Source: Flectonema sp. DT1601
Taxonomy: Eukaryota > Euglenozoa > Diplonemea > Diplonemida > Diplonemidae
Reading direction: 5' to 3'
Assembly: GCA_964019425.1 (NCBI GenBank)
Contig: OZ025854.1
Location: 487,106 to 551,105, forward strand
DNA length: 64,000 bases
Part shown: positions 7,769-34,940 of the stretch, piece after piece
Numbering within the stretch: position 1 is the stretch's first letter
Layout of the letters: every line of letters begins with the position of its first letter
The notes under the pieces: generated by a model
Database searches by the model: none
Seen by the model: only the letters and a program-made list of their open reading frames with translations
Told to the model about the DNA's origin: nothing
Program-made: the position numbers and the translations under genes

Positions 7769-10700
7769 ATGAAGAAAAGGTATTCAATATTTGGCAGCCG
7801 ACATACCAGAGAACAAGTAATATTGTTATTGATGATATTCACATTGGCAACAGTGTGGGGTACAATGAGAGATAGCGTCCGAGTACAAAAAGACATGCAA
7901 ATAATTTTATCAAAAAACATTGATTCGACAACAGTAGGATTAATCCAGGAAGCTTATCCTCAGGCTAACATTGTTAGAAGTACCCTCTTTGGAGACGATT
8001 CGAATTTTATAACCATACCGGTTAATAAAAATAAACTTCCATCAGCAAAAGAAACTTTTTCAAGACAACTTTTCATCAAATTCTGGAGAGATGACTCGAC
8101 AATAGCAGAAGTACGAAAATCACTACGAAGCTGTAAAAGTGTTTTTTGTCCTTTTTTGATTGGAAGTTGCTGTGAAAGCAATGTGTGTGATCAGAATTTC
8201 GCTGCTTTATTAGTATCAAACGCATGGGTACCATCAGCATTAAGATTTTCAGAGACTAAGCTGTGCTCTAACACGTCAGATAATGCTGATGTTCACATTC
8301 ACGTTGGAGTATTGAATAAGAATTTATACGTAATGTCAAAACCGATTTCCGATTCAACTGACTTATTCACAATGAAACACTCTGGTTATAGTATTGTTTA
8401 CTGTACGTCAACAGTAACGAATTGGGGATGCGCTGCGTTGTTTCTTCAAAAGATTCAAAATCTCAAAAAAGAACTTGACGGTTTTGAGAGAATTATTTTT
8501 ACTGAAGAACCCAACTTCAAAATTCTTCAAAGAGACATAACCCAAAATGATCCTTTTGGGTGTCTTTCTTATACGTCAGATGCAGTTGTTCCTGTTCAGT
8601 ATAACAGAAATAAACAAAGCTCTCTACCTCACATTTTAATGGCCAAGGCTTTTCTTAATGAAGTTCCACCTTCATTCGATATTTCATGGTATCATACAAC
8701 TGGTGGAGCAGTTCAATTATTGTCATTACTGAGGGGTAGCAATCAGTTTTACAAGAGGTTTCGTGATGTTCTTCGGGTTGTAGGATCACAACACTTTTTA
8801 ACGGTACTGCAATATGCTTTGGGAAATGATCAGAAAAGACTTGGAGATGGATGTGATAGAAATATGGGAACACCGTTTTCTGAAATACTACAAAATATTG
8901 ACGAGCCTTACATGGTAAAACAACGTAACGGTTCGATGTTTGTCCGCAAACAAAATTCAAAACAAACACGGCCGTTGATAGTTCTTAAATCTGCCACATC
9001 CCAGTCAGTGAATATCCTTCTCAACGAAGGTTACAGTGTTTATTTCTCAACAACAACAGAAGAAAATGGTCACATAAAATTTATTCTTAATCCAGAAGAA
9101 AATCTTCTACCCTGCACCGTATTTCTCCAAGGACATGTGATTGACACTTATTATCAAAGAACTACTCCGAATTTAGAAAGTTTCCTCGATGATCTTGATA
9201 GGTCGATAGCATGTTGTATTTTTTCAAAAAGATATGTTGCTTTGGGTAAAAATGTCTTTTCTTCATTATGGAAAAAATATACATTGGGTCTTCCTGAATG
9301 GTGGAATACACATGTTGGAGATGTTAAAAAGATGGATACTTCAAAAAGCGTATTGTCACTTGATTCTGGAGGACAATTTGTAATCCCAAGTGAACTTCTA
9401 CAACACTCACAAGTCAGGGAGACCATACTTAAAATAAATTCATTGCCGCGATCTGTATTTAATAATGACGGTATTGATTACCCGCTTGCAACACCACCGA
9501 CAACAACACCAACTAGCAGTCTTGAAGAATTATTATTGTTTACGTGGCATTTTATTTTTGGAGAAGACCAAATATCAAAACAACAGCAATGTAAGGAACG
9601 CTCAATTAACTTACAATTCGAAACGAGAGGACTCAGGGGTATAGTAAAACACAACAAAAAAGGAGCCTGGACAGAAAATACTAAAGACTGGAATCAAGGC
9701 ATACTCGTAGTCTTATCTGGTGATGCAAAACACCGTTATGAATGTGTCGCTCATATGCAGAGAAAAAAGATAAATGTCTGGGTTTCTCTTCATTATAGCA
9801 CCTGCAGTAATTACAAACTAAACAGCCCGGCTACTAGGATTCCATGCAGAGAAATATACGGCTACTACGCGTACTTGTCTGACCCTGAAAGGCCATCAGC
9901 TGATTATATCATACTGTCACATGCTCATGTTAGATCATGGCATCAACCGTTTTATTTATCACAAGCTATTAGTCATGCTCTTCCTGAAGTAAAGCGGAGT
10001 CAAAGATACACGACTATGACACATCGTTGGAACGTAAAAGTATGGACTGATGGAGCAGAAGAAGTAGCAGATGAATACAACAATCTCATATCTGACCTTC
10101 CAGAAGCAGTAAAAATGAAAAAGAAATTGGTGATGCACTACTGTTGTGCTCAGGGAATTGTTCCTTACAATAGTATCCGTGGGGTACCGTTGTCTGTATT
10201 CACGAGGATTTTTGAATCTGTTTCAAGGAATTTATTATACAGTTCAGGATGGTATCTCGAGAAGGTTTTAACTCATTCTCTTGGTGATGATAAAGCGATT
10301 GAACTAATTCCATTAAAAACGGATTTATCACCGCAAATGAACCGTGACACATACACCTATCCAAACAATCATTCTGGAACCATCTGGCGTGATGGAACGA
10401 TTGTTCCTCAGCCTTTGAGTGAACCAATCCAACTATTGGTTGTAATCGGTAAGTATGATCCAATGCAAAATAAGACTTCAGAATTTACATTATGGGTACC
10501 CTCTGAGATGTGTACAGCTTCTAATGCTTGCAATACTTCGTGGGGTTACATTTCATACTTGTCTGATATACATAGACCTGAAGCTGATTTAGTAATTTTC
10601 GTACCAACATTGCAAGACTTAGAAATCGTCAAACATAGAATAAATGCCGCTACTGAATGCTTAGTCAACAGACCTGGAAGTAATTATGCACCACTGCTTG

Positions 10701-11011
10701 GTTATGGAAAAAGGCTTGAGCGTGATTCTCATCGGAAAGTCGTTCTTGAATGGAATGATCAATTTAGTGATTTGGAATATGTTCTCCACGCTGGTTCTGA
10801 GATCGTTTCGTATGAGAATTTAATTTTTATCGTTTCATATAATTCTCTAACTCAGAATTTAGCGTACTGGACTTATTATCTTAGGGTGTGGAGGATGGTG
10901 AGGGAAGGATCACCCAAAATTGAACAGCTACTCAGTCACTTTTGGCATATTCTATTCACTTGGGAGGAAAATTTTTCCTTAACAGTTGCTTGTTGGAACT
11001 ATCCTTTTTAA
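7769..11011 (+). CDS. Large type II membrane protein with DUF3431-like modules
   Basis: This 1080-residue protein starts with a short basic N-terminus and one hydrophobic segment (about residues 16-32), so it looks like a signal-anchored protein facing the ER/Golgi lumen or the cell exterior. The rest is cysteine-containing globular sequence. At least two related blocks are seen. One near residues 650-735 has PCREIYGYYAYLSDPERP followed by ADYIILSHAHVRSWH. The other, near 905-960, has WGYISYLSDIHRPEADLVIF. A third, near 400-480, has TVFLQGHVIDTYY. The pattern of Y-x-Y-L-S-D, an Asp-rich strand and His resembles DUF3431, a fungal and protist family often near glycosyltransferases. The ATG follows a 24-base A tract directly. 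The function is unknown. Confidence 0.7.
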   Translation: MKKRYSIFGSRHTREQVILLLMIFTLATVWGTMRDSVRVQKDMQIILSKNIDSTTVGLIQEAYPQANIVRSTLFGDDSNFITIPVNKNKLPSAKETFSRQLFIKFWRDDSTIAEVRKSLRSCKSVFCPFLIGSCCESNVCDQNFAALLVSNAWVPSALRFSETKLCSNTSDNADVHIHVGVLNKNLYVMSKPISDSTDLFTMKHSGYSIVYCTSTVTNWGCAALFLQKIQNLKKELDGFERIIFTEEPNFKILQRDITQNDPFGCLSYTSDAVVPVQYNRNKQSSLPHILMAKAFLNEVPPSFDISWYHTTGGAVQLLSLLRGSNQFYKRFRDVLRVVGSQHFLTVLQYALGNDQKRLGDGCDRNMGTPFSEILQNIDEPYMVKQRNGSMFVRKQNSKQTRPLIVLKSATSQSVNILLNEGYSVYFSTTTEENGHIKFILNPEENLLPCTVFLQGHVIDTYYQRTTPNLESFLDDLDRSIACCIFSKRYVALGKNVFSSLWKKYTLGLPEWWNTHVGDVKKMDTSKSVLSLDSGGQFVIPSELLQHSQVRETILKINSLPRSVFNNDGIDYPLATPPTTTPTSSLEELLLFTWHFIFGEDQISKQQQCKERSINLQFETRGLRGIVKHNKKGAWTENTKDWNQGILVVLSGDAKHRYECVAHMQRKKINVWVSLHYSTCSNYKLNSPATRIPCREIYGYYAYLSDPERPSADYIILSHAHVRSWHQPFYLSQAISHALPEVKRSQRYTTMTHRWNVKVWTDGAEEVADEYNNLISDLPEAVKMKKKLVMHYCCAQGIVPYNSIRGVPLSVFTRIFESVSRNLLYSSGWYLEKVLTHSLGDDKAIELIPLKTDLSPQMNRDTYTYPNNHSGTIWRDGTIVPQPLSEPIQLLVVIGKYDPMQNKTSEFTLWVPSEMCTASNACNTSWGYISYLSDIHRPEADLVIFVPTLQDLEIVKHRINAATECLVNRPGSNYAPLLGYGKRLERDSHRKVVLEWNDQFSDLEYVLHAGSEIVSYENLIFIVSYNSLTQNLAYWTYYLRVWRMVREGSPKIEQLLSHFWHILFTWEENFSLTVACWNYPF

Positions 11012-11610: not shown

Positions 11611-11905
11611 TTCTCAAATTTTAAATGGAACGTGAACGCAGCTACTCAATTGAACCTCGACGAAGAATCCTAGTTGTAGCTGGTTCACTCCGAAGTTTCC
11701 CTCAGGATAGCTGGAACCATAAAAGGAGTTACGCCAGGTAAAGCGAATGATTGGAGGCATTGGGGATATCGTTTCCTCGACCTATTCTCAAACTTTAAAT
11801 GGGCGTGAACGCGGGGTTGCTTAATTGAACCCCGACGAAGAATCCTGGTTCCAAGTGGGCCACTTCTGGTAAGCAGGACTGGCGATTCGGATGAGCCGAG
11901 AGCTG
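11611..11905 (+). rRNA. Partial LSU (25S/28S-type) rRNA fragment with internal tandem duplication
   Basis: The stretch 11676-11905 matches conserved eukaryotic LSU rRNA of the central domain. It contains GTAGCTGGTTCACTCCGAAG (11676-11695), TTTCCCTCAGGATAGCTGG (11696-11714), GTAAAGCGAATGATTGGAGG (11738-11757), CCTATTCTCAAACTTTAAAT (11781-11800) and GTGGGCCACTTCTGGTAAGC (11856-11875). The order and spacing fit the real molecule. The first 65 bases (11611-11675) repeat 11785-11850 imperfectly, so a unit of about 174 bp is tandemly duplicated with the left copy truncated. Nothing rRNA-like was seen outside these limits. This is most likely a displaced rDNA fragment or pseudogene; a functional fragmented rRNA piece is less likely. 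Confidence 0.88.
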
Positions 11906-24284: not shown

Positions 24285-27200
24285 ATGGGGAATCGAATAC
24301 TGGTGTTGATATGTTTTGTTCTGTTGTTCTGTAATGTGATTGCGGTAGCTCCTTCATGTCCTGATTGCAATTGTACTAACCTTGACCACAATACACCTAA
24401 TGAGCACAATGCTCCTGATGAACACCACGCTCCTAGTGATCATCATGTTACTGATGATCACACTCCTCATGGAGGAGGAGATCATGAACCTCATGATATG
24501 TGTGGTCACGAAGTTCACGAGGATCCCCCATATATAATATTCTCAATGTTTATGTTGTTCGTTGCTGGTGCTCTTGTTCGTCATCATTTTAAGAAACCTC
24601 CACTTAATAAACTCCCATACACAATCGTGTTGTTCGTCATTGGCTGCATTGTCGGAGGTATATCCCAAGGGATTGGTGAGAAAGCCGAGAAATATGTCCT
24701 CCTCGCGGATATGAACGCTCATTTAATATTTTATGTTTTCCTTCCGATTCTTATTTTTGAATCAGCGTTTTCACTGAATTGGCATGTTTTTAAAAAGGTA
24801 CTTGGGCACTGTTTGGTGTTAGCTGGGCCAGGAATACTATTAGCGACAGCACTCACTGCTATGTTAGTAAAATTACTGTTCTCAAGTTACGAATGGACTT
24901 GGATTACGTGTATTTTATACGGAGCGATTGTTTCTGCTACGGATCCTGTAGCAGTAGTGGCGTTATTAAAGGAAGTTGGTGCCCCTGAAGCCATTTCAGC
25001 CTTAATCGAAGGAGAATCGTTAATGAACGATGGTACTGCAATTGTTCTTTTTAACATCTTCAAGGGAATGGTTTGTCTGGGTGAATTTGATCAAACTGCT
25101 GGAGAAGTTATTTTTGAACTTATAAAAGTAGCAGCAGGTGGTCCTATACTTGGTCTTGTCGTTGGAATGATAGCTGAATGGTGTTTATCAAAAATTTTCA
25201 ACGACGCTTTGGTTGAGATTGCTGTTACACTGGCAGCTGCATACCTGACGTTTTTTATTGCTGAGGGATTCCTTCATGTGTCTGGGGTGTTGGCTTTGGT
25301 CGCTTTAGGAATTTGGCTTTCCCACCACAGGCAAGCAATCTCACCTGAAGTAGAACACACATTGCATGGTTTTTGGGAAATGACAGTTTACCTCGCAAAT
25401 ACTTTAATTTTCGCCCTAGTTGGACTGGTCGCTACCACGAGCAAACGCTTCAGTAACATCGACGGAACCGATGTTCTCTACACTCTACTCGCTTATGCGA
25501 TCATAACTGGGGTGCGTGCTATACTAATTGCTGGGTTCTATCATCCATTAAAAATGGCAAAGTGGCAACTCGATAAAAAGGCTGCTGTTCTTGTCTGGTG
25601 GGGAGGATTAAGAGGAGCTGTTGGTCTTTCACTCACTCTGATGGTCGCTGATGATGAAGTCATCCGCAGAGTTCATCCAGAACTTGGCAATAAGTTTCTA
25701 TTTCACGTCGTTGTTCTTGTAGCTCTCACGTTGATTGTAAACGGAATTAGTTGTCAGTTTGTAGTCGCAAAACTTGGTCTTGCGGATGTACCATTGGCTC
25801 AAAAACGTCTTTTTACGCGCTGTTTTGGCGACATCCTCGAAAAACAACACGACACCATTACTGAACTGAAGGTAAACCCGATGTTGAAAGATGTCAACTG
25901 GCAGCTTGTGGGTCGGTACACACATGAAGAACTACGCAATCCGTACCAACCAACAGATAAAGACATTGAAAGTGATGATTCAGGTCCAGGAGAAGCAGCG
26001 AGAATGGCTTACTTGAAAATAGTAAAACAAAGTGTCTGGGACCAATACGAACATGGATTGATAACTGCTGAAACTATTCCGAGGGTGATTAAGTTTGCTG
26101 AGAGAGCTGGTGATATTCACGGGAAATTTATCTTTCAAGACGTTCTATTTAAGTATTGGAATGAATCATTCATTGCGAGTAAAGTATCTGGATTCTCCCT
26201 CTCTCTTCCATTTTGCCATTCGAAATTATCAAAAGTGTCTGCTGCATGGAAGGAACAACGTTGGGCAGCAGGTTTCGATGTTGCGACATCTTTAATTCAT
26301 TGTCATGATGACGTCTTAGAGAAGATTGACAGTATGGTTGACGACGCTAAGGAAGCCAATAAAATAAAAGTCCATTGCAAATCATTAAAATCAGGATGCT
26401 ACACTCAAATTGACGATTTATCAGCAGAAAGAGCCCAGCTAGCAGTCGCAATTCAAACAAGACACGCAGCAAGACGAGTTTTAAATGGTGCCAGGTCATC
26501 TATTCATCACATGCAACACGTTGGAATGTTGTCACATGAAGACGCTGATGAACTTGTGAAATTAATTGAAATACGAATGGATCGCTTAGCAAGAGCACCA
26601 CGCAACATGCCTCCTACTGACACTACGGAACTCCTTCAGGATGAAGTCTCTTGGATGAGAAAAGTAGAATTCAGTTGTGTGCAAGAGTTTAAAGCCGGAG
26701 CACAAGAATACAAAGCACGTAAACACGAGAAGATTATCACAAGGGACAATGCTGGTACAGGATTCTACATCATTGTAAATGGTGTTGCAAAGTCTAGAGT
26801 TCAGAATACGTTTTTATCAATGCACGGAGCAGGTGAATGTCTCTTCCTGAGTAACATCCTGTGCACAAAACCAACTGTGACAGAAGTATTCGCAGAAACC
26901 GACATGACTATATTATGGGTTACTTCAGAAACAGTTGAAAGCCTAATGTCAAGGTACTCACTACTTTCTAAAGAAGTTTGGAATTGTGCTGGTATCGAAG
27001 CAGCTTACATAGCATTACACTCTATAGAACCATTTAGTACATGGTCTAGACTAGAGTTATTGAAATTCATTAAAGGTGGAGAGATTGTTGAAGGTGGTGG
27101 TGACGGTTCAAAAGGATCGCTTAATAAAATATTCCAACCTGGAATGTACCACATCTTAGTCGATGGAAGAATCACTTTAGGTGGAGAGACCAGGTCAGGA

Positions 27201-27545
27201 GTTCAACTTATTGACACTGCCGGAATTGGTGCAGCTACCACAGTAAGTCTATCTCCTTACTCACATATATTCAGTATTAGTAATCCTTCATCTCCCCAGG
27301 CGAAAGCACGTCAACACTGGGCTAAGGTTCGCTCGACACTCAAATCGATTTCACTATTCTCTTCTGTTCGTATTTCAGGATTCTTTGATCCGGGTGGTGT
27401 CGCCGAGGCAATTAGACATGAATTTGGTGAAGCAGCTACGACGTCCCCATTAACTCAGAGGAAGAATGGAATTAACGTTTTTGATCCCTCAGCTGGTGAT
27501 TTCGACGAACCTCTACTAGACAGAGAGATGATTGCAATTGAGTAG
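24285..27545 (+). CDS. Na+/H+ exchanger (SOS1/sperm-NHE-like) with cyclic-nucleotide-binding-like tail
   Basis: This 1086-residue protein is a CPA1-type cation/proton antiporter. After a signal peptide comes a His/Asp-rich extracellular segment (about residues 30-75) made of imperfect hexapeptides NTPNEH, NAPDEH, HAPSDH, HVTDDH. Residues 80-500 hold about 12 membrane segments, including ATDPVAVVALLKEVG, EGESLMNDGTAIVLF and WWGGLRGAVGLSL, the transport-core motifs seen in SOS1-type antiporters. The long cytosolic tail contains a cyclic-nucleotide-binding-like fold near residues 800-900 (ITRDNAGTGFYIIVNGVAK, GAGECLFLSNIL). The usual phosphate-binding FGE-x-x-L/RxA signature is only partly kept, so ligand binding is uncertain. 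It probably exports Na+ at the plasma or flagellar membrane. Confidence 0.88.
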   Translation: MGNRILVLICFVLLFCNVIAVAPSCPDCNCTNLDHNTPNEHNAPDEHHAPSDHHVTDDHTPHGGGDHEPHDMCGHEVHEDPPYIIFSMFMLFVAGALVRHHFKKPPLNKLPYTIVLFVIGCIVGGISQGIGEKAEKYVLLADMNAHLIFYVFLPILIFESAFSLNWHVFKKVLGHCLVLAGPGILLATALTAMLVKLLFSSYEWTWITCILYGAIVSATDPVAVVALLKEVGAPEAISALIEGESLMNDGTAIVLFNIFKGMVCLGEFDQTAGEVIFELIKVAAGGPILGLVVGMIAEWCLSKIFNDALVEIAVTLAAAYLTFFIAEGFLHVSGVLALVALGIWLSHHRQAISPEVEHTLHGFWEMTVYLANTLIFALVGLVATTSKRFSNIDGTDVLYTLLAYAIITGVRAILIAGFYHPLKMAKWQLDKKAAVLVWWGGLRGAVGLSLTLMVADDEVIRRVHPELGNKFLFHVVVLVALTLIVNGISCQFVVAKLGLADVPLAQKRLFTRCFGDILEKQHDTITELKVNPMLKDVNWQLVGRYTHEELRNPYQPTDKDIESDDSGPGEAARMAYLKIVKQSVWDQYEHGLITAETIPRVIKFAERAGDIHGKFIFQDVLFKYWNESFIASKVSGFSLSLPFCHSKLSKVSAAWKEQRWAAGFDVATSLIHCHDDVLEKIDSMVDDAKEANKIKVHCKSLKSGCYTQIDDLSAERAQLAVAIQTRHAARRVLNGARSSIHHMQHVGMLSHEDADELVKLIEIRMDRLARAPRNMPPTDTTELLQDEVSWMRKVEFSCVQEFKAGAQEYKARKHEKIITRDNAGTGFYIIVNGVAKSRVQNTFLSMHGAGECLFLSNILCTKPTVTEVFAETDMTILWVTSETVESLMSRYSLLSKEVWNCAGIEAAYIALHSIEPFSTWSRLELLKFIKGGEIVEGGGDGSKGSLNKIFQPGMYHILVDGRITLGGETRSGVQLIDTAGIGAATTVSLSPYSHIFSISNPSSPQAKARQHWAKVRSTLKSISLFSSVRISGFFDPGGVAEAIRHEFGEAATTSPLTQRKNGINVFDPSAGDFDEPLLDREMIAIE

Positions 27546-29941: not shown

Positions 29942-29945
29942 ATGA
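29913..29945 (+). promoter_or_regulatory. Upstream ORF overlapping next start (ATGA)
   Basis: A ten-codon ORF (MKTPWNANTI) starts at ATG 29913, and its TGA (29943-29945) overlaps the main ATG at 29942 as ATGA. Another ATG at 29924 opens a three-codon ORF in a different frame. Both lie after the candidate acceptor AG at 29881-29882, so they would be on the mature mRNA. Confidence 0.55.
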
Positions 29946-31795
29946 ATGAAATATCATCGAAGAAATATGCGATAGCTGGAGGATTGGTACCTCCGGCAGC
30001 TCCATTTCAACATAAGAAATTTACTTTGTCAAGACAACGCATTGAGGACCCTTGGCTGGCTGATATTAAATTGTTAAGAGGAGTAACGGGTCACAATATC
30101 CCAACTGTCTTTCTTGCAAAGAGGTCTGGTGTGACTCCGAAGTATCAACTTCTTACAAAAAGAGGACGAGCAGAAGGAAAGAACGATGTAATTCTATACC
30201 AAGGGTTCAACAGCTGCGTTAATCCTTTCGAAATACTGCCAGAGGGACAGTTGTTATGTTTGAAACAGAAATCTTCAGAATCGGTGTCGAGAATGGGATC
30301 AAAATATCAAATTGGTGTCAGTCACTCGACTGATGGTATGCTGTCTTCAGGTGAAATGCAACATAGAAAAAGTAACATGATCGATACGACAATAAAGTTT
30401 CCTAAGTTGTGTAGTTTAATTTCATCAAACGTAGCGAACCAATTAGTCGAAGTTGATAACAAAGTTGATACCCTCCTGTCATCAGAACAACACTCTAAGA
30501 TTACTCATCTGGAAAAACAATTAGAAACCGTCACAACTGAACGATCATTAACAACGACCTCCTCACCTGATACTGGGCCTCTTGATACTAATTCTCAGAA
30601 TGTAAAATTTCAACCGGGAACAACCAGACAACTTAACTACGGTCATTCAGCTGTTCTAAGCCAAGAAGTTATTTCTTACTATTACAGTGAACGAGACCAG
30701 ATGTTAGCAAGGAGACAAAAAAGAGTATCACTACTGGTCGATAAGAATAAGAAGCTTAAGGACGATGATGTATCACAAAGTCAACACAGTGGATTAGATG
30801 ACTTATCAACAATACGTAGGAAGAGTAGTGCAGGGAGCTATCAGAGTAATCGTCGGAAGTCAGGTGAATCGGAATTAGGTCTTGTTGGTGTCGATAAAAA
30901 AAAGAGATTTCAAGAAGCTTTCGGGGGCTATCTAACCAACAAACCAACTCAAGCAGAACGTTCAAAAACAACAGTCTTATCAATCGAAGAGTATTCTCTT
31001 ATAAAACAAGATTTCCTTGAGCTTGACTCCCTTGGAGTTGGTAGACTCAGCAAAGAACGTCTCTGCCAACCCAACTCAGCAATAGCTGGAAGGCTCATCG
31101 ATACCACTACTTTCTACAAAATTGACAATGACAACACTGGATACCTAACTCTTAATCAGTTATTAAAGTTTTGGTATAGTCACATACCTTATACAGAAAT
31201 ACTCAGTAAAATAAGGCAATACGAGTCTGTAAAGCTCCCCTTCGAAGCTTCGAAAGTCCCCTGGATTGAAAAGTATCCTCCACAAGTACTAAATGAAATT
31301 AACGAAATTTTTAAAAAAATTGACAACGGAGATAAAGGATACCTAGACTACGACGATTTTAAAGGTTTTCTAAGAGGCAAACACAGCAGTAGTTTGGGTG
31401 AAAACGACTGTCGGGCTGTGTTTGTAGAACACAGTGAAAAACGACTCAACGGTGACATGGGTATCGCATTGGGTGAATTCATTGAGCTGGTGAAACACGC
31501 GTATCCAGAAATTTCATGGCCTGACAACAAGTCACCGAAAACTACATCATCAAAGTCAGCAGAACGACGTAACGAAATCCTGGAGCTCGCAGCATCCCGT
31601 GCGGTCTTTAGTAACCCGACAGACTTGGAAGACTTTCAAAAGTTTTGTAAAGGATGTGGTACTTCTCTTATTTCTGTTGAACTGAAAGGTAATCCGTTCA
31701 CAGCAATTCGACTACAACAGAACTCACTTGTTAATGAAAGCAAAAATAAATCTGACAGACAACCAATGAATCCACCAGTACCGAAATGGTGCTGA
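29942..31795 (+). CDS. EF-hand protein, unknown role
   Basis: This 617-residue hydrophilic protein has an N-terminal part without known domains (KFTLSRQRIEDPWLADIKLL at about residues 26-45), a low-complexity Ser/Arg region (about 260-320) and a C-terminal calmodulin-like region. EF-hand loops are seen near 395-406 (DNDNTGYLTLNQ) and 460-471 (DNGDKGYLDYDD); the second is close to canonical and the first is plausible. A degenerate third loop follows near residues 492-512. No membrane segment or acylation signal is seen (it starts MNEISS). A calcium-responsive cytoskeletal or flagellar protein would fit. The start lies 60 nt after an acceptor and is preceded by an overlapping upstream ORF. Confidence 0.8.
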   Translation: MNEISSKKYAIAGGLVPPAAPFQHKKFTLSRQRIEDPWLADIKLLRGVTGHNIPTVFLAKRSGVTPKYQLLTKRGRAEGKNDVILYQGFNSCVNPFEILPEGQLLCLKQKSSESVSRMGSKYQIGVSHSTDGMLSSGEMQHRKSNMIDTTIKFPKLCSLISSNVANQLVEVDNKVDTLLSSEQHSKITHLEKQLETVTTERSLTTTSSPDTGPLDTNSQNVKFQPGTTRQLNYGHSAVLSQEVISYYYSERDQMLARRQKRVSLLVDKNKKLKDDDVSQSQHSGLDDLSTIRRKSSAGSYQSNRRKSGESELGLVGVDKKKRFQEAFGGYLTNKPTQAERSKTTVLSIEEYSLIKQDFLELDSLGVGRLSKERLCQPNSAIAGRLIDTTTFYKIDNDNTGYLTLNQLLKFWYSHIPYTEILSKIRQYESVKLPFEASKVPWIEKYPPQVLNEINEIFKKIDNGDKGYLDYDDFKGFLRGKHSSSLGENDCRAVFVEHSEKRLNGDMGIALGEFIELVKHAYPEISWPDNKSPKTTSSKSAERRNEILELAASRAVFSNPTDLEDFQKFCKGCGTSLISVELKGNPFTAIRLQQNSLVNESKNKSDRQPMNPPVPKWC

Positions 31796-31946
31796 CCATC
31801 TTTGAGAAGGAGAGGATTTCCATCCTTTTTTTTATTTATTTATTAAATTAGTTCTGTTATGAAAATTTGTGTTTTTGGTTTTTTTTTGTTCTTCCCCCCC
31901 AATTATATTATTTTCATTTTTACAAAACAGGGTCGGCAGTCGGCAC

Positions 31947-34940
31947 ATGACGTGGCCAGGGTGCCAGACGGTTTTCCGACTTTTTTTGCTGCTGGTGGTT
32001 GTTCGTCCGAGTGAATCATTTATTCGAATTCTTGGAGTGTTTTCAAGTGAGAACCCGATAGCCCCTCACGGACCAAAAGGTCTCACTGATCAATGTTCTA
32101 ATATAACAGATGCATGTAGAGGTGGATATCCTACTTTACGATCATGGTTTAGAGAACTATCTCGTAACACAGAAGGAACGATTAGAATAACAACACCTGA
32201 CGTGACCAGTAGAACTGTGAGAAGTCATCCTGAAGGGTTGCGATGGAATTACAAAATGTGGAATGGTCTGGGTATTGATTTCTTAACATTTAGAACAAAT
32301 TATCCAATCACGGCAGCACCTGAATCCAGGAGGGTTGAAGTAGCTAATTTTTTAATGGCGTCTTCTATTCCTGCTGTGTTGTCAAATTATCACGTTGATG
32401 AAACAAACATATACCTGCTTGACTTGATAACGAGAATGCACGTCAGGACCATTGCGGATACTAAAATAAGTACCATGGTATTATGGGACGACTACTTTGT
32501 TGGCGTCACAGCTCCTGTGTATCCTGCTACAGCAGTATTGTCAATCATCACAAATAAACTTAGAAGGGAACATGTTGACATTATCGCAGTCTTCATTACT
32601 GGTAACATCGGCAGCATGTGGTCTGAATCACGCTACTTAGAAATAGCAACGACTGGTGTTGATGTTGTTGTTTGTGATATTCCGTATTTCCCGAATGAGA
32701 CTCGTGACGGAATTATAAAAACGACAATCAGAATGAATACGACTTTCTTTTTCGTAACTCCTGGCTATGACTTAATTTCGTTAGACGTCGGAAATAAGAC
32801 TGAGAAAAGCTTTAAACTCAACACAGTGTCACTTAGAGACCCAATTCCTGATACCCATGACTTAGTTAAATTCAATGTTGATACCCAATGGATTCAAACA
32901 GAGATAAATAAAGCATGGTCAAGCCAAATGATTATTGGAATATCAAACGGTCCATTAGAAGTAACCTTCATCGATGAAACAAACTACAAACCTTGCTTAG
33001 AAAGAGAATGTCAACTAGGAAGACTAACAACAGATGCAATGGCATACACATCGTCTAATAATATTGCTATTATAAATGGAGGGGCACTTCGAGGAATTGG
33101 ATGGCCATCTGGACCTATCACACAACATATTTTGTTAGAATCACTTCCATATCCTGATGTCTTGTGTGTTTTAAATGTCACTGGTCCTGCTCTGCTATCA
33201 ATCCTTAACCACGGACTCAAAGCGTTACTTGAGAATAGCACTGTTAATTCTCACTCTAGTCTTGGATCGTATTTACAAGTATCTGGAATGAGATATACTT
33301 ACAATTCTTTCCTACCATCAGATTCGAGAGTTACCAGCGTTGAAATCTACAACAGTGAAACAAGACTATACGAACCCATCCAGAGAAGAGCAACTTACAG
33401 TATTACAACGACTGAATTTCTTCTAAATGGTGGTGATGGCTTTGGTGATGTTCTCAGTGATCGTGTCGAGGGATCGTTAATTTGTTCGTTGCGAAGTTTG
33501 TTATCGACAGTAAACGAATATTTAAAAGATCACAATCCATACATTCCACACGTTGATAGCATTATTTCTGATGGAAACAGAGAAGCGTTAGAAATGACAA
33601 ACAAAACAGCAGCTAATTGCACAATCTATGAGAAACATCTCCCGTATTGGTCAGACTGCGAAAGTTGTCCAGACGGGTATTGGCATCCCAACAGCGGAGA
33701 TGACCCTTGTATTAAAATAATAAAAAGTAAAACTGATTTTCCACTTTTTTGGATTCTTATCGCAAGTGGTGGTTTTATATTATTAATAGCAGTGCCAGTA
33801 GGATGGAAACTTACAGAAAGGTCTAGACGAATAAGACACCTTTACAATAATAATAGAATAGCTGAGGAGTGTGCTGCTGCTGTTGTTGAACTTCGTCTTT
33901 CTGATCTTGATTATTTATCAAATTTAGAAAAACCGAATACAATTCAACAGTCATTTATAAAGATTGTCGAACAGATGAAGATCTACATGGATTTTATGCC
34001 GAAAGCACTTATTGTAAATGTTCATGATGAGGGAATCGATGCTCTCGATACTTCTGTTAAAAGTATATCTGTTCCTGTTAGTCTGTCTTTGAGTATTTCT
34101 CGTGACACACGTGAAGTAACACAGTCGACAAATCCTCTGTTAAGGTCGACTGTCACAGTCACAGACTTGTCAGAAAAGATTAATCACATTAGGAGGAAAC
34201 GAATAACAGTGTTGGCAGCGAATTGCAGAGATTTGTTGAAATTTGATACGGCGGATACTTTGACGGAAAAGATTCATTCTGCGTACTTAGAAACATTCAA
34301 CACTATAGTTGAAGCCCATCATGGCGTCACCGAAGGAGGTTGCGGAGATCGTCTAATCGCTGGATGGAATACCGTCAACGACAAGTGTTCAACCACTCAA
34401 AAAGTTTGTGCTGTCACTGCTGCACACAAATTATCCACATCGCAGCTAGACCCTCTCTGTATTGATGTTGGTATTGGACATGGTGAAGCCAAGGTCGGTT
34501 TATGTGGTGGTCGTGGTGCTAGAAAATATGATATTCTTGGTAGGCCAGTAACCCAAGCAATCTACTTAATGATTTTAAATAAAGTATACAGCACATCGAT
34601 ACTGCTACCACATGCAGTCGCTACTGATTGTGTTCCTTTCTTTGCGAGTGAGGTCATTGATCATATAACATATCCTAAGATTGGACGTGTTCTGCTGTAT
34701 CGTTTAGCTGAACCAAAAAGACCTCAAAAAGATGGAGAAGAATGGATGTATGTTGTTGGTGATGCTGAGAACGATGATCCATACGCTGTTCATAACAGCC
34801 ACTGGATTCAGTTTATAACATCTGGTGAGGTCCCACGATCATCATCGTTATCTGGTAGGCTTTTGGAACTCCAAGTGAACAATCCATCTGGTGTGATAGA
34901 AGACTATTGCGCCTCGCATCAATCTCTTGCGCTAATGTAG
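31947..34940 (+). CDS. Receptor-like fusion: degenerate 5'-nucleotidase ectodomain, TM, degenerate class III cyclase
   Basis: The ATG at 31947 lies 16 nt after the acceptor ACAAAACAG and opens a signal peptide (MTWPGCQTVFRLFLLLVVV). Residues about 27-560 align in order with 5'-nucleotidases. The metallophosphatase half has lost its metal ligands: the expected NDxH reads SSEN, GNHE reads RTNY, and GGHSH reads CDIPY. The C-terminal substrate-binding half is well kept (LGRLTTDAMAY, IAIINGGALRGIG, LQVSGMRYTYN, TEFLLNGGDGFGD). One transmembrane segment follows (about 599-620). A cytosolic class III nucleotidyl cyclase-like domain occupies about 748-900 (GGCGDRLIAGWN, IDVGIGHGEAKVGLCGG, YDILGRPVTQAIYL). 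The first metal Asp is missing (AANC for FxDI), and the transition-state Asn is Gln. It is 997 residues long. A nucleoside-sensing pseudoenzyme receptor is inferred. Confidence 0.75.
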   Translation: MTWPGCQTVFRLFLLLVVVRPSESFIRILGVFSSENPIAPHGPKGLTDQCSNITDACRGGYPTLRSWFRELSRNTEGTIRITTPDVTSRTVRSHPEGLRWNYKMWNGLGIDFLTFRTNYPITAAPESRRVEVANFLMASSIPAVLSNYHVDETNIYLLDLITRMHVRTIADTKISTMVLWDDYFVGVTAPVYPATAVLSIITNKLRREHVDIIAVFITGNIGSMWSESRYLEIATTGVDVVVCDIPYFPNETRDGIIKTTIRMNTTFFFVTPGYDLISLDVGNKTEKSFKLNTVSLRDPIPDTHDLVKFNVDTQWIQTEINKAWSSQMIIGISNGPLEVTFIDETNYKPCLERECQLGRLTTDAMAYTSSNNIAIINGGALRGIGWPSGPITQHILLESLPYPDVLCVLNVTGPALLSILNHGLKALLENSTVNSHSSLGSYLQVSGMRYTYNSFLPSDSRVTSVEIYNSETRLYEPIQRRATYSITTTEFLLNGGDGFGDVLSDRVEGSLICSLRSLLSTVNEYLKDHNPYIPHVDSIISDGNREALEMTNKTAANCTIYEKHLPYWSDCESCPDGYWHPNSGDDPCIKIIKSKTDFPLFWILIASGGFILLIAVPVGWKLTERSRRIRHLYNNNRIAEECAAAVVELRLSDLDYLSNLEKPNTIQQSFIKIVEQMKIYMDFMPKALIVNVHDEGIDALDTSVKSISVPVSLSLSISRDTREVTQSTNPLLRSTVTVTDLSEKINHIRRKRITVLAANCRDLLKFDTADTLTEKIHSAYLETFNTIVEAHHGVTEGGCGDRLIAGWNTVNDKCSTTQKVCAVTAAHKLSTSQLDPLCIDVGIGHGEAKVGLCGGRGARKYDILGRPVTQAIYLMILNKVYSTSILLPHAVATDCVPFFASEVIDHITYPKIGRVLLYRLAEPKRPQKDGEEWMYVVGDAENDDPYAVHNSHWIQFITSGEVPRSSSLSGRLLELQVNNPSGVIEDYCASHQSLALM

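Follow-up and report, generated by a model that had tools for sequence, protein, structure and literature searches.

The window, a stretch of 64,000 nucleotides from the diplonemid Flectonema sp. DT1601 (assembly GCA_964019425.1, contig OZ025854.1, positions 487,106 to 551,105), carries on its forward strand the gene of a putative 997-residue receptor, in which a degenerate 5'-nucleotidase ectodomain is joined to a degenerate class III cyclase domain. The domain order, the homology of both folds, the residue losses and the family membership are read from sequence, and the features of the locus are as follows.

31880..31930, + strand: pyrimidine tract and AG, the probable trans-splice acceptor of the mRNA (sequence reading, by inference from kinetoplastid gene structure)
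31947..34940, + strand: whole receptor gene, 997 residues (ORF call, ATG at 31947)
31947..32018, + strand: predicted signal peptide, about residues 1-24 (hydrophobic N-terminus read by eye, no predictor)
32016..32936, + strand: degenerate metallophosphatase half of a 5'-nucleotidase, about residues 24-330, Asp85 kept (family profile, ligand table, AF2)
32982..33452, + strand: 5_nucleotid_C domain, residues 346-502, which includes N377, R382 and the aromatics at the base-stacking positions, Y442 and F499 (Pfam and alignment to solved chains)
33582..33737, + strand: Cys-rich juxtamembrane stalk, about residues 546-597 (sequence; common to the seven aligned uninterrupted receptors)
33738..33806, + strand: predicted single transmembrane helix, about residues 598-620 (hydrophobicity by eye, no predictor)
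33807..34016, + strand: linker, about residues 621-690 (most conserved region of the trio defined below; HAMP-like in some relatives)
34176..34751, + strand: class III pseudo-cyclase module, residues 744-935, ending in EWMY at 34740-34751 (family profile, residue table)
34752..34937, + strand: C-terminal tail, residues 936-997 (sequence; 29-41% identity in the trio)

The reading frame at the locus is open for 1025 codons, and an AG 17 nt upstream of the ATG, preceded by the pyrimidine tract, fits a trans-splice acceptor; spliced-leader matches number 718 in the genome and 0 in a reversed control. Two paralogues in the same genome align with the receptor over nearly its full length, at 39% and 38% identity, and form with it what we call the trio. 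The single transmembrane segment of the preliminary description was also found in our hydrophobicity reading. Pfam HAMP matched two of the ten linkers tested (E 8.6e-4 and 3.2e-3, both under the curated cut-off) and gave no match in the linker of the 997-residue receptor itself, so that a HAMP label for this linker is unsupported.

When the protein was searched alone against Pfam, 5_nucleotid_C was detected with an E-value of 4.9e-29 and neither Metallophos nor Guanylate_cyc appeared at E<=1; consequently, family profiles were required for two of the three domains claimed. With these, both folds proposed by the preliminary description were matched significantly, although the single-protein search that it had envisaged recovered just the one domain. 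A profile of the N half from seven receptor ectodomains aligned with 30 bacterial 5'-nucleotidases at a probability of 97.1 and E 6.6e-11 (hhalign), and with four of the genome's own 5'-nucleotidases at 74.7 and E 2.6e-5, compared with E 0.52 for a control against cyclases; against PDB sequences it returned nothing at E<=10. The receptor's own N half scored 4.6 bits against the bacterial HMM, no better than shuffled sequences (maximum 6.8), so the metallophosphatase homology of this half rests on the family, in which the N halves of the paralogues C30 and C73 reached 25.1 and 12.9 bits. Three of 80 bacterial loci were dropped for lack of an ORF of at least 350 residues containing GNH. The AF2 model of the ectodomain had a pLDDT of 72.7 and a pTM of 0.74, from an alignment without 34 of the 77 bacterial ORFs, the selection being made on rank and length. 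In the tree, seven receptor ectodomains stood apart from 16 nucleotidases (100/100), and the trio formed one group (100/99). The claim of a 5'-nucleotidase-type ectodomain thus stands.

Of the residues that bind metal or act in catalysis, the receptor has lost the Asp and His of motif I, the catalytic His, the His of motif IV and both His of motif V. The Asp of motif II is retained as D85, and the Asn of motif III is T117 (lost) in the joint alignment and N118 when the receptor is aligned singly. The loss of the dinuclear metal ligands is therefore extensive, as the preliminary description had it, but less complete than it stated. Relatives with matching losses, which it had anticipated, were found: when the eight ectodomain paralogues are aligned jointly with 31 bacterial enzymes, every paralogue lacks the same six of eight positions for ligands or catalysis, although one of the six, the motif I His, is variable among the bacterial enzymes too (His in 17/31). 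Single alignments shift some positions, giving Asp at motif I in C73 and at motif II in C53a, Asn at motif III in the 997-residue receptor, C73 and C29, and His at motif IV in C53b, which makes individual loops uncertain. With most metal ligands and the catalytic His gone, the ectodomain most likely no longer cleaves its substrate.

The C domain of the ectodomain is conserved above the N half in the trio. We take the equivalents of the CD73 pocket residues N390, R395, F417, F500 and R354 to be N377, R382, Y442, F499 and L351, respectively. Both base-stacking positions are aromatic and position 390 is Asn in 8/8 paralogues. Phosphate binding is doubtful, as the equivalent of one phosphate Arg, R354, is Leu in this receptor and that of R395 is Lys, Glu and Gly in C53b, C29 and C13. 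The preliminary description was thus right that the C half is the better kept, and overstated how intact the pocket is. C13 has lost the cysteine pair C353-C358 in addition to the R395-equivalent Arg, and ligands may therefore differ between family members.

The assignment of the intracellular domain to class III, also proposed earlier, was supported by a profile of the module built from 11 proteins (A1). Among the PDB sequences matched at E<=0.1, 29 of 30 were cyclases (best E 9.1e-12), the remaining one being a 'transcriptional regulator' at E 0.099. The same profile aligned with 20 independent class III cyclases at E 5.7e-20 (hhalign) and scored 74/74 IMG/VR cyclase domains, 6 of 80 pieces having been dropped as shorter than 185 residues; these viral cyclases were found with a degenerate DNA pattern, two protein-level scans of viral contigs having given no confirmed cyclase. 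Alignment of the module with only four cyclases from the same genome was not significant (E 0.13 and 0.62), and stronger hhalign values were set aside because their targets included the 997-residue protein itself. The first metal Asp and the transition-state Asn are replaced, as had been noted, by N759 and T869, and the Lys and Arg by G798 and Y873. The second metal Asp is retained (D801), and D862 occupies the adenine position. The full catalytic set was present in 40/40 control cyclases, and Asp, Lys, Asp, Asn and Arg were all kept in the 7/7 tabulated active-type domains of the genome. The EWMY motif, taken from alignments with no named library family behind it, is invariant in A1.

The degenerate module matches approximately 100 loci in the genome, where it also occurs with LamG, Kelch-EGF and SBP ectodomains, and in the tree the cyclase-like domain of the receptor groups within a clade of degenerate cyclases. 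The eight members of the dead-nucleotidase ectodomain family carry a degenerate cyclase alone (n=3), an active one alone (n=4) or both (n=1); those with an active-type domain are C53a, C53b, C29, C8 and C13. This is thus no isolated double loss: the ectodomain loss is common to an eight-member family, and the clade of degenerate cyclases matches about 100 loci, among them carriers of unrelated ectodomains. The parts shared by these relatives suggest, at the level of sequence, sensing or regulation over catalysis. Three receptors, C13, C47 (L054) and C45b (L055), carry an active and a degenerate domain in one chain, behind a linker of the same kind. If all of the module loci acted on cyclases they would be many, and another effector is possible.

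The reading that we favor, with a probability of about 0.5, is that of a non-catalytic ligand-binding receptor whose pseudo-cyclase acts as a ligand-controlled brake on active cyclases; ligand, dimerization, inhibitory sign and partner are all inferred. The ectodomain would close on a small ligand, with a nucleoside or nucleotide as first candidate, and its movement would pass through the stalk, the transmembrane helix and the highly conserved linker to a class III-fold domain that would be without the residues to make cAMP. This domain may form homodimers or pair with the catalytic domain of an active receptor cyclase. The active site of class III enzymes is formed from both chains; a pair of pseudo and active domains would lack a complete site, and the receptor would thereby restrain cAMP production as a dominant-negative subunit. 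The natural fusion of active and degenerate domains in three receptors suggests such a partnership, an argument that is indirect because the degenerate second domains of these tandem receptors do not group firmly in the tree with the module of the 997-residue receptor. In trypanosomes, different isoforms of receptor cyclases dimerize with one another, and PMC9481589 considers dominant-negative heterodimers.

That the gene is decaying and its lost motifs are meaningless is scarcely credible. Stop codons do interrupt C8, one paralogue out of eight, but the long open frame, the two near full-length paralogues and the sharing of the cyclase losses by a whole clade argue against it. Identity in the trio reaches 69-84% in the linker and 43-67% in the cyclase-like core, a region-specific pattern that points to constraint rather than decay. 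It is also very improbable that the cyclase-like domain retains catalysis, whether by means of unusual residues or in a site completed with another chain. The second metal Asp persists in 26 of the 27 modules examined (ten of the module loci were hand-picked from the match list, not random), and the members of the trio have an Asp where adenine is recognized; however, none of the 27 has the full catalytic set, the Lys being missing in all and the Asn, Arg and first metal Asp each in 26.

Two further explanations accept most of this anatomy. The cleft of the ectodomain may have been turned to a different ligand or to adhesion, nucleosides being no longer bound, which we regard as doubtful and yet a real possibility: the catalytic and ligand His are lost in 8/8 (joint alignment), the phosphate-binding positions are altered as described, and the NGG or NAG loop is followed in 8/8 by a GW specific to the family, whereas the aromatic clamp, the Asn of that same loop and the better conservation of the trio's C domain speak for the ancestral use. 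Alternatively, and in our opinion unlikely, the pseudo-cyclase could relay the signal to, or dock, an effector other than a cyclase, for example a kinase or a scaffold of the flagellum. The number of module loci would suit such a role, with EWMY, which lies outside the cyclase core and is present in 26 of the 27 modules, as a candidate for docking. In T. brucei RDK1 a sensor-like domain is followed by a transmembrane helix, a cyclase-like region and a protein kinase; PMC8519429, which also covers other kinases with cyclase-like domains, describes this arrangement as conserved in Bodo saltans. The 997-residue receptor resembles RDK1 in layout, with a sensor, helix and cyclase-like domain, and lacks the kinase. 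Nor was a kinase downstream of the module borne out in C10, the sole long relative checked: its next 1.4 kb has no frame open beyond 125 codons, hence no kinase follows this module. The scoring of kinase candidates covered 130 out of 635. The three fusions to active-type cyclases likewise weigh against a non-cyclase effector.

At a wider scale, and at somewhat less than even odds, we propose that pseudo-cyclase receptors are a large class, numbering about 100 loci in a single genome, whose members carry a dead class III domain with EWMY behind interchangeable sensors. A dead CD73-like sensor would be among them, and since it is joined to dead, active and active plus dead outputs, a given ligand could serve as a brake, an accelerator or both. 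According to PMC8519429 and PMC9481589, the receptor cyclases of kinetoplastids still await identification of their ligands. A sensor with a recognizable ancestral ligand class would offer a concrete first candidate, and its sisters with intact cyclases a direct read-out. For two metabolic enzymes of trypanosomatids the pseudo-enzyme principle is described in PMC5201418 and PMC3663545; a receptor class with a dead cyclase as common output would extend it to membrane signaling on a large scale.

Among known systems, CD73 and the bacterial 5'-nucleotidases share with the receptor the two-domain order, the 5_nucleotid_C domain, the NGG..R loop and the base-stacking aromatics; the receptor differs in having lost six of eight metal or catalytic positions. 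The cysteine pair C353-C358 of CD73 has its equivalent in the receptor as well, and where CD73 is attached to the membrane by a GPI anchor, the receptor has a transmembrane helix and a cyclase-like domain. Kinetoplastid receptor-type adenylate cyclases (ESAG4/GRESAG4) have a large ectodomain, one transmembrane helix and a C-terminal class III domain, as does this receptor; the likeness to ESAG4 is by layout only, and the ectodomain, the lost catalytic residues, the long conserved linker and the EWMY motif set the receptor apart. In sAC and tmAC C1/C2 enzymes the second half supplies the Lys, Asn and Arg, whereas in the 997-residue receptor the degenerate domain stands alone and has none of the three. 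Their pairing of an active and a degenerate domain recurs in C13, C47 and C45b, and the A1 profile matches chains of ADCY10 (E 1.4e-7) and of type V cyclase (E 7e-4).

The pseudo-5'-nucleotidase receptor of the window has seven paralogues in its genome (89.5 Mb searched, 92 contigs). Two match it almost from end to end (C73, 39% identity; C30, 38%) and form with it a trio whose only cyclase domain is degenerate, and five match mostly in the ectodomain (24–28% identity). The frame was counted at 997 open codons from the ATG, and two elements were read in the sequence upstream:

31880–31899, pyrimidine tract, upstream of the ATG
31929–31930, AG, upstream of the ATG
31947–34940 (+), reading frame of the receptor

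Used as a single query, the window protein matched only 5_nucleotid_C in Pfam (E 4.9e-29, residues 346–502), so that of the three profiles named in the preliminary description Metallophos and Guanylate_cyc went unmatched; a PDB sequence search at E<=10 returned 29 nucleotidase sequences and one cyclase (E 0.74). Further support was therefore required for both the N-half and the cyclase assignments. Six of the seven paralogues were scanned with Pfam, the interrupted C8 being left out. All six contained 5_nucleotid_C and four Guanylate_cyc (C53a, C13, C53b, C29), which had no Pfam match in C73 and C30; Metallophos was found in none of the six at E<=0.1, and in a parallel scan it matched 3/3 other nucleotidase-like proteins of the genome. 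The whole-genome Guanylate_cyc search also placed a match in C8 (C8:1364585-1366408), a paralogue with an active-type cyclase and a frame broken by stops, either a pseudogene or an assembly error, which entered the analyses as pieces. Another 5'-nucleotidase-like protein (C59:690510 region) is degenerate at 6/8 ligand positions and lacks the receptor layout in the 682 of ~1175 aa read.

A profile of seven receptor N halves matched 30 bacterial 5'-nucleotidases with a probability of 97.1 (E 6.6e-11; cyclase control, E 0.52) and four 5'-nucleotidases of the same genome with 74.7 (E 2.6e-5; control, E 0.45). With a bacterial N-domain HMM, C30 (25.1 bits), C73 (12.9) and C8 (8.1) exceeded the top of 800 shuffled decoys (6.8), whereas the window protein (4.6), C53a, C29, C53b and C13 did not, so the homology of its N half rests on the family. 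An AlphaFold2 model of the ectodomain built with 43 bacterial homologues, an input alignment biased toward the 5'-nucleotidase fold, had a mean pLDDT of 72.7 and a pTM of 0.74. The proposed 5'-nucleotidase ectodomain is borne out in both halves by the family profile and 5_nucleotid_C. In a tree of seven receptors and 16 nucleotidases the receptors were set apart (100/100), with the trio (100/99) and C53a, C53b and C29 (99/98) as groups; C13 was a long branch of uncertain placement, and the program flagged the composition of the window protein and C30.

The ectodomain metal ligands had been described as replaced. In a joint alignment of the eight receptors with 31 bacterial enzymes, all eight lacked Asp and His of motif I, Asn and the catalytic His of motif III, His of motif IV and both positions of motif V, so the paralogues share these losses. 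Because single alignments restored the motif III Asn in the window protein, C73 and C29, plus a few other residues, six of the eight ligand or catalytic positions can be called lost with confidence. Asp of motif II survives in five receptors, including the window protein (D85), where the description overstates the loss. Solved 5'-nucleotidase chains that we take to be CD73 served as pocket reference, with residues in CD73 numbering. The nucleoside pocket, supposedly intact, keeps N377, R382, Y442 and F499 (390, 395, 417 and 500) but has L351 at 354. All eight receptors have Asn at 390 and an aromatic residue at both 417 and 500; at 395, five carry Arg and one Lys.

Support for the cyclase-like domain came from a profile of 11 modules of this genome, that is, degenerate domains with an EWMY motif. 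Cyclases made up 29 of its 30 PDB matches at E<=0.1, headed by CyaB (9.1e-12) and the 1wc0 cyclase (8.5e-11) and including sAC (1.4e-7) and the type V fragment VC1; the other was a "transcriptional regulator" (0.099). The profile matched 74/74 IMG/VR cyclase domains scored and, against a profile of 20 of them, gave E 5.7e-20, supporting the class III assignment. In a single alignment with 40 IMG/VR cyclases, all with a complete catalytic set, 7/7 active-type domains of the genome had both Asp, Lys, Asn and Arg; none of 17 stand-alone degenerate modules, nor of ten more chosen from the module-match list, was complete. In these 27 modules, in which the C24 and C15 rows contain near copies, the second metal Asp occurs in 26, Lys in none, and the first Asp, Asn and Arg in one each; EWMY is present in 26 (C25 and C26 read directly from sequence).

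With the linker and module of the carrier C7a as query, at least 109 places in the genome matched at E<=0.001, a lower bound from 106 of 314 candidates scored, in which a few genes yield two pieces and a few matches are linker-only. Guanylate_cyc itself has at least 151 matches, a very large expansion; none of those listed overlapped the C7a-module matches when compared by eye. Among nine module carriers scanned with Pfam, ectodomains were Laminin_G_3 (two), Kelch with EGF (three) and SBP_bac (one); three had no clear ectodomain family and may be Cache-like, judging by appearance only, and two of these showed a weak HAMP match. Guanylate_cyc was absent from 9/9 at E<=0.1. A domain tree split 12 active from 26 degenerate domains (100/99), the latter with numerous long branches and open forks; given this split, the trio's domain seems unlikely to have decayed recently from the active domain of its sisters. 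Linker, active-type cyclase and degenerate second domain share a single chain in C13 and, outside the family, in C47 and C45b; these second domains did not group firmly with the trio module. In these sequences, one type of dead-nucleotidase sensor is joined to three outputs: degenerate, active, and active plus degenerate.

Within the trio, identity was highest in the linker (69–84%), followed by the stalk (46–64%), the cyclase-like core (43–67%), the C ectodomain (39–57%), the TM segment (32–43%), the N ectodomain (29–46%) and the Ser-rich spacer (21–28%); the C ectodomain is better kept than the N ectodomain, as had been suggested. Such region-specific identity reads as the pattern of a working transducer, not of decay.

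The active site of class III enzymes is assembled from both chains. A module paired with an active domain would have one site without the first metal Asp and the other without Lys, Asn and Arg, and given these losses the simplest output for the window protein would be a ligand-gated brake on cAMP. PMC9481589 reports the pull-down of one trypanosome cyclase isoform with another and proposes dominant-negative heterodimers for them. A competing idea is that the module would relay to another effector rather than brake cAMP, as suggested by the layout of RDK1 (PMC8519429). None of the titles and abstract openings listed for the open-licence PMC literature describes a receptor that combines 5'-nucleotidase-like and cyclase domains, which is weak evidence of novelty.

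In the window, 19 of the 22 ORFs of at least 150 aa lie on the + strand and the other three overlap them. A pattern from the 3' portion of the spliced leader of kinetoplastids occurs 718 times in the genome (288 forward, 430 reverse), and zero times when read backwards as a control; the matches listed include arrays spaced by ~610–623 bases. On this evidence the genome was read as that of a kinetoplastid. A 203-base piece of eukaryotic LSU rRNA (RF02543, 172 bits) lies between protein genes at 11696–11898 (+); of 43 such matches in the genome, some form regular arrays at C92, C79 and C39 and others are scattered and in part incomplete. The frame at 7769–11011 (+) encodes a 1080-aa protein whose sole match is a weak DUF3431. 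Upstream of the receptor, 24285–27545 (+) encodes a Na+/H+ exchanger with a cyclic-nucleotide-binding domain, a layout we take to be sperm NHE-like, separated from the receptor gene by an EF-hand protein (29942–31795).
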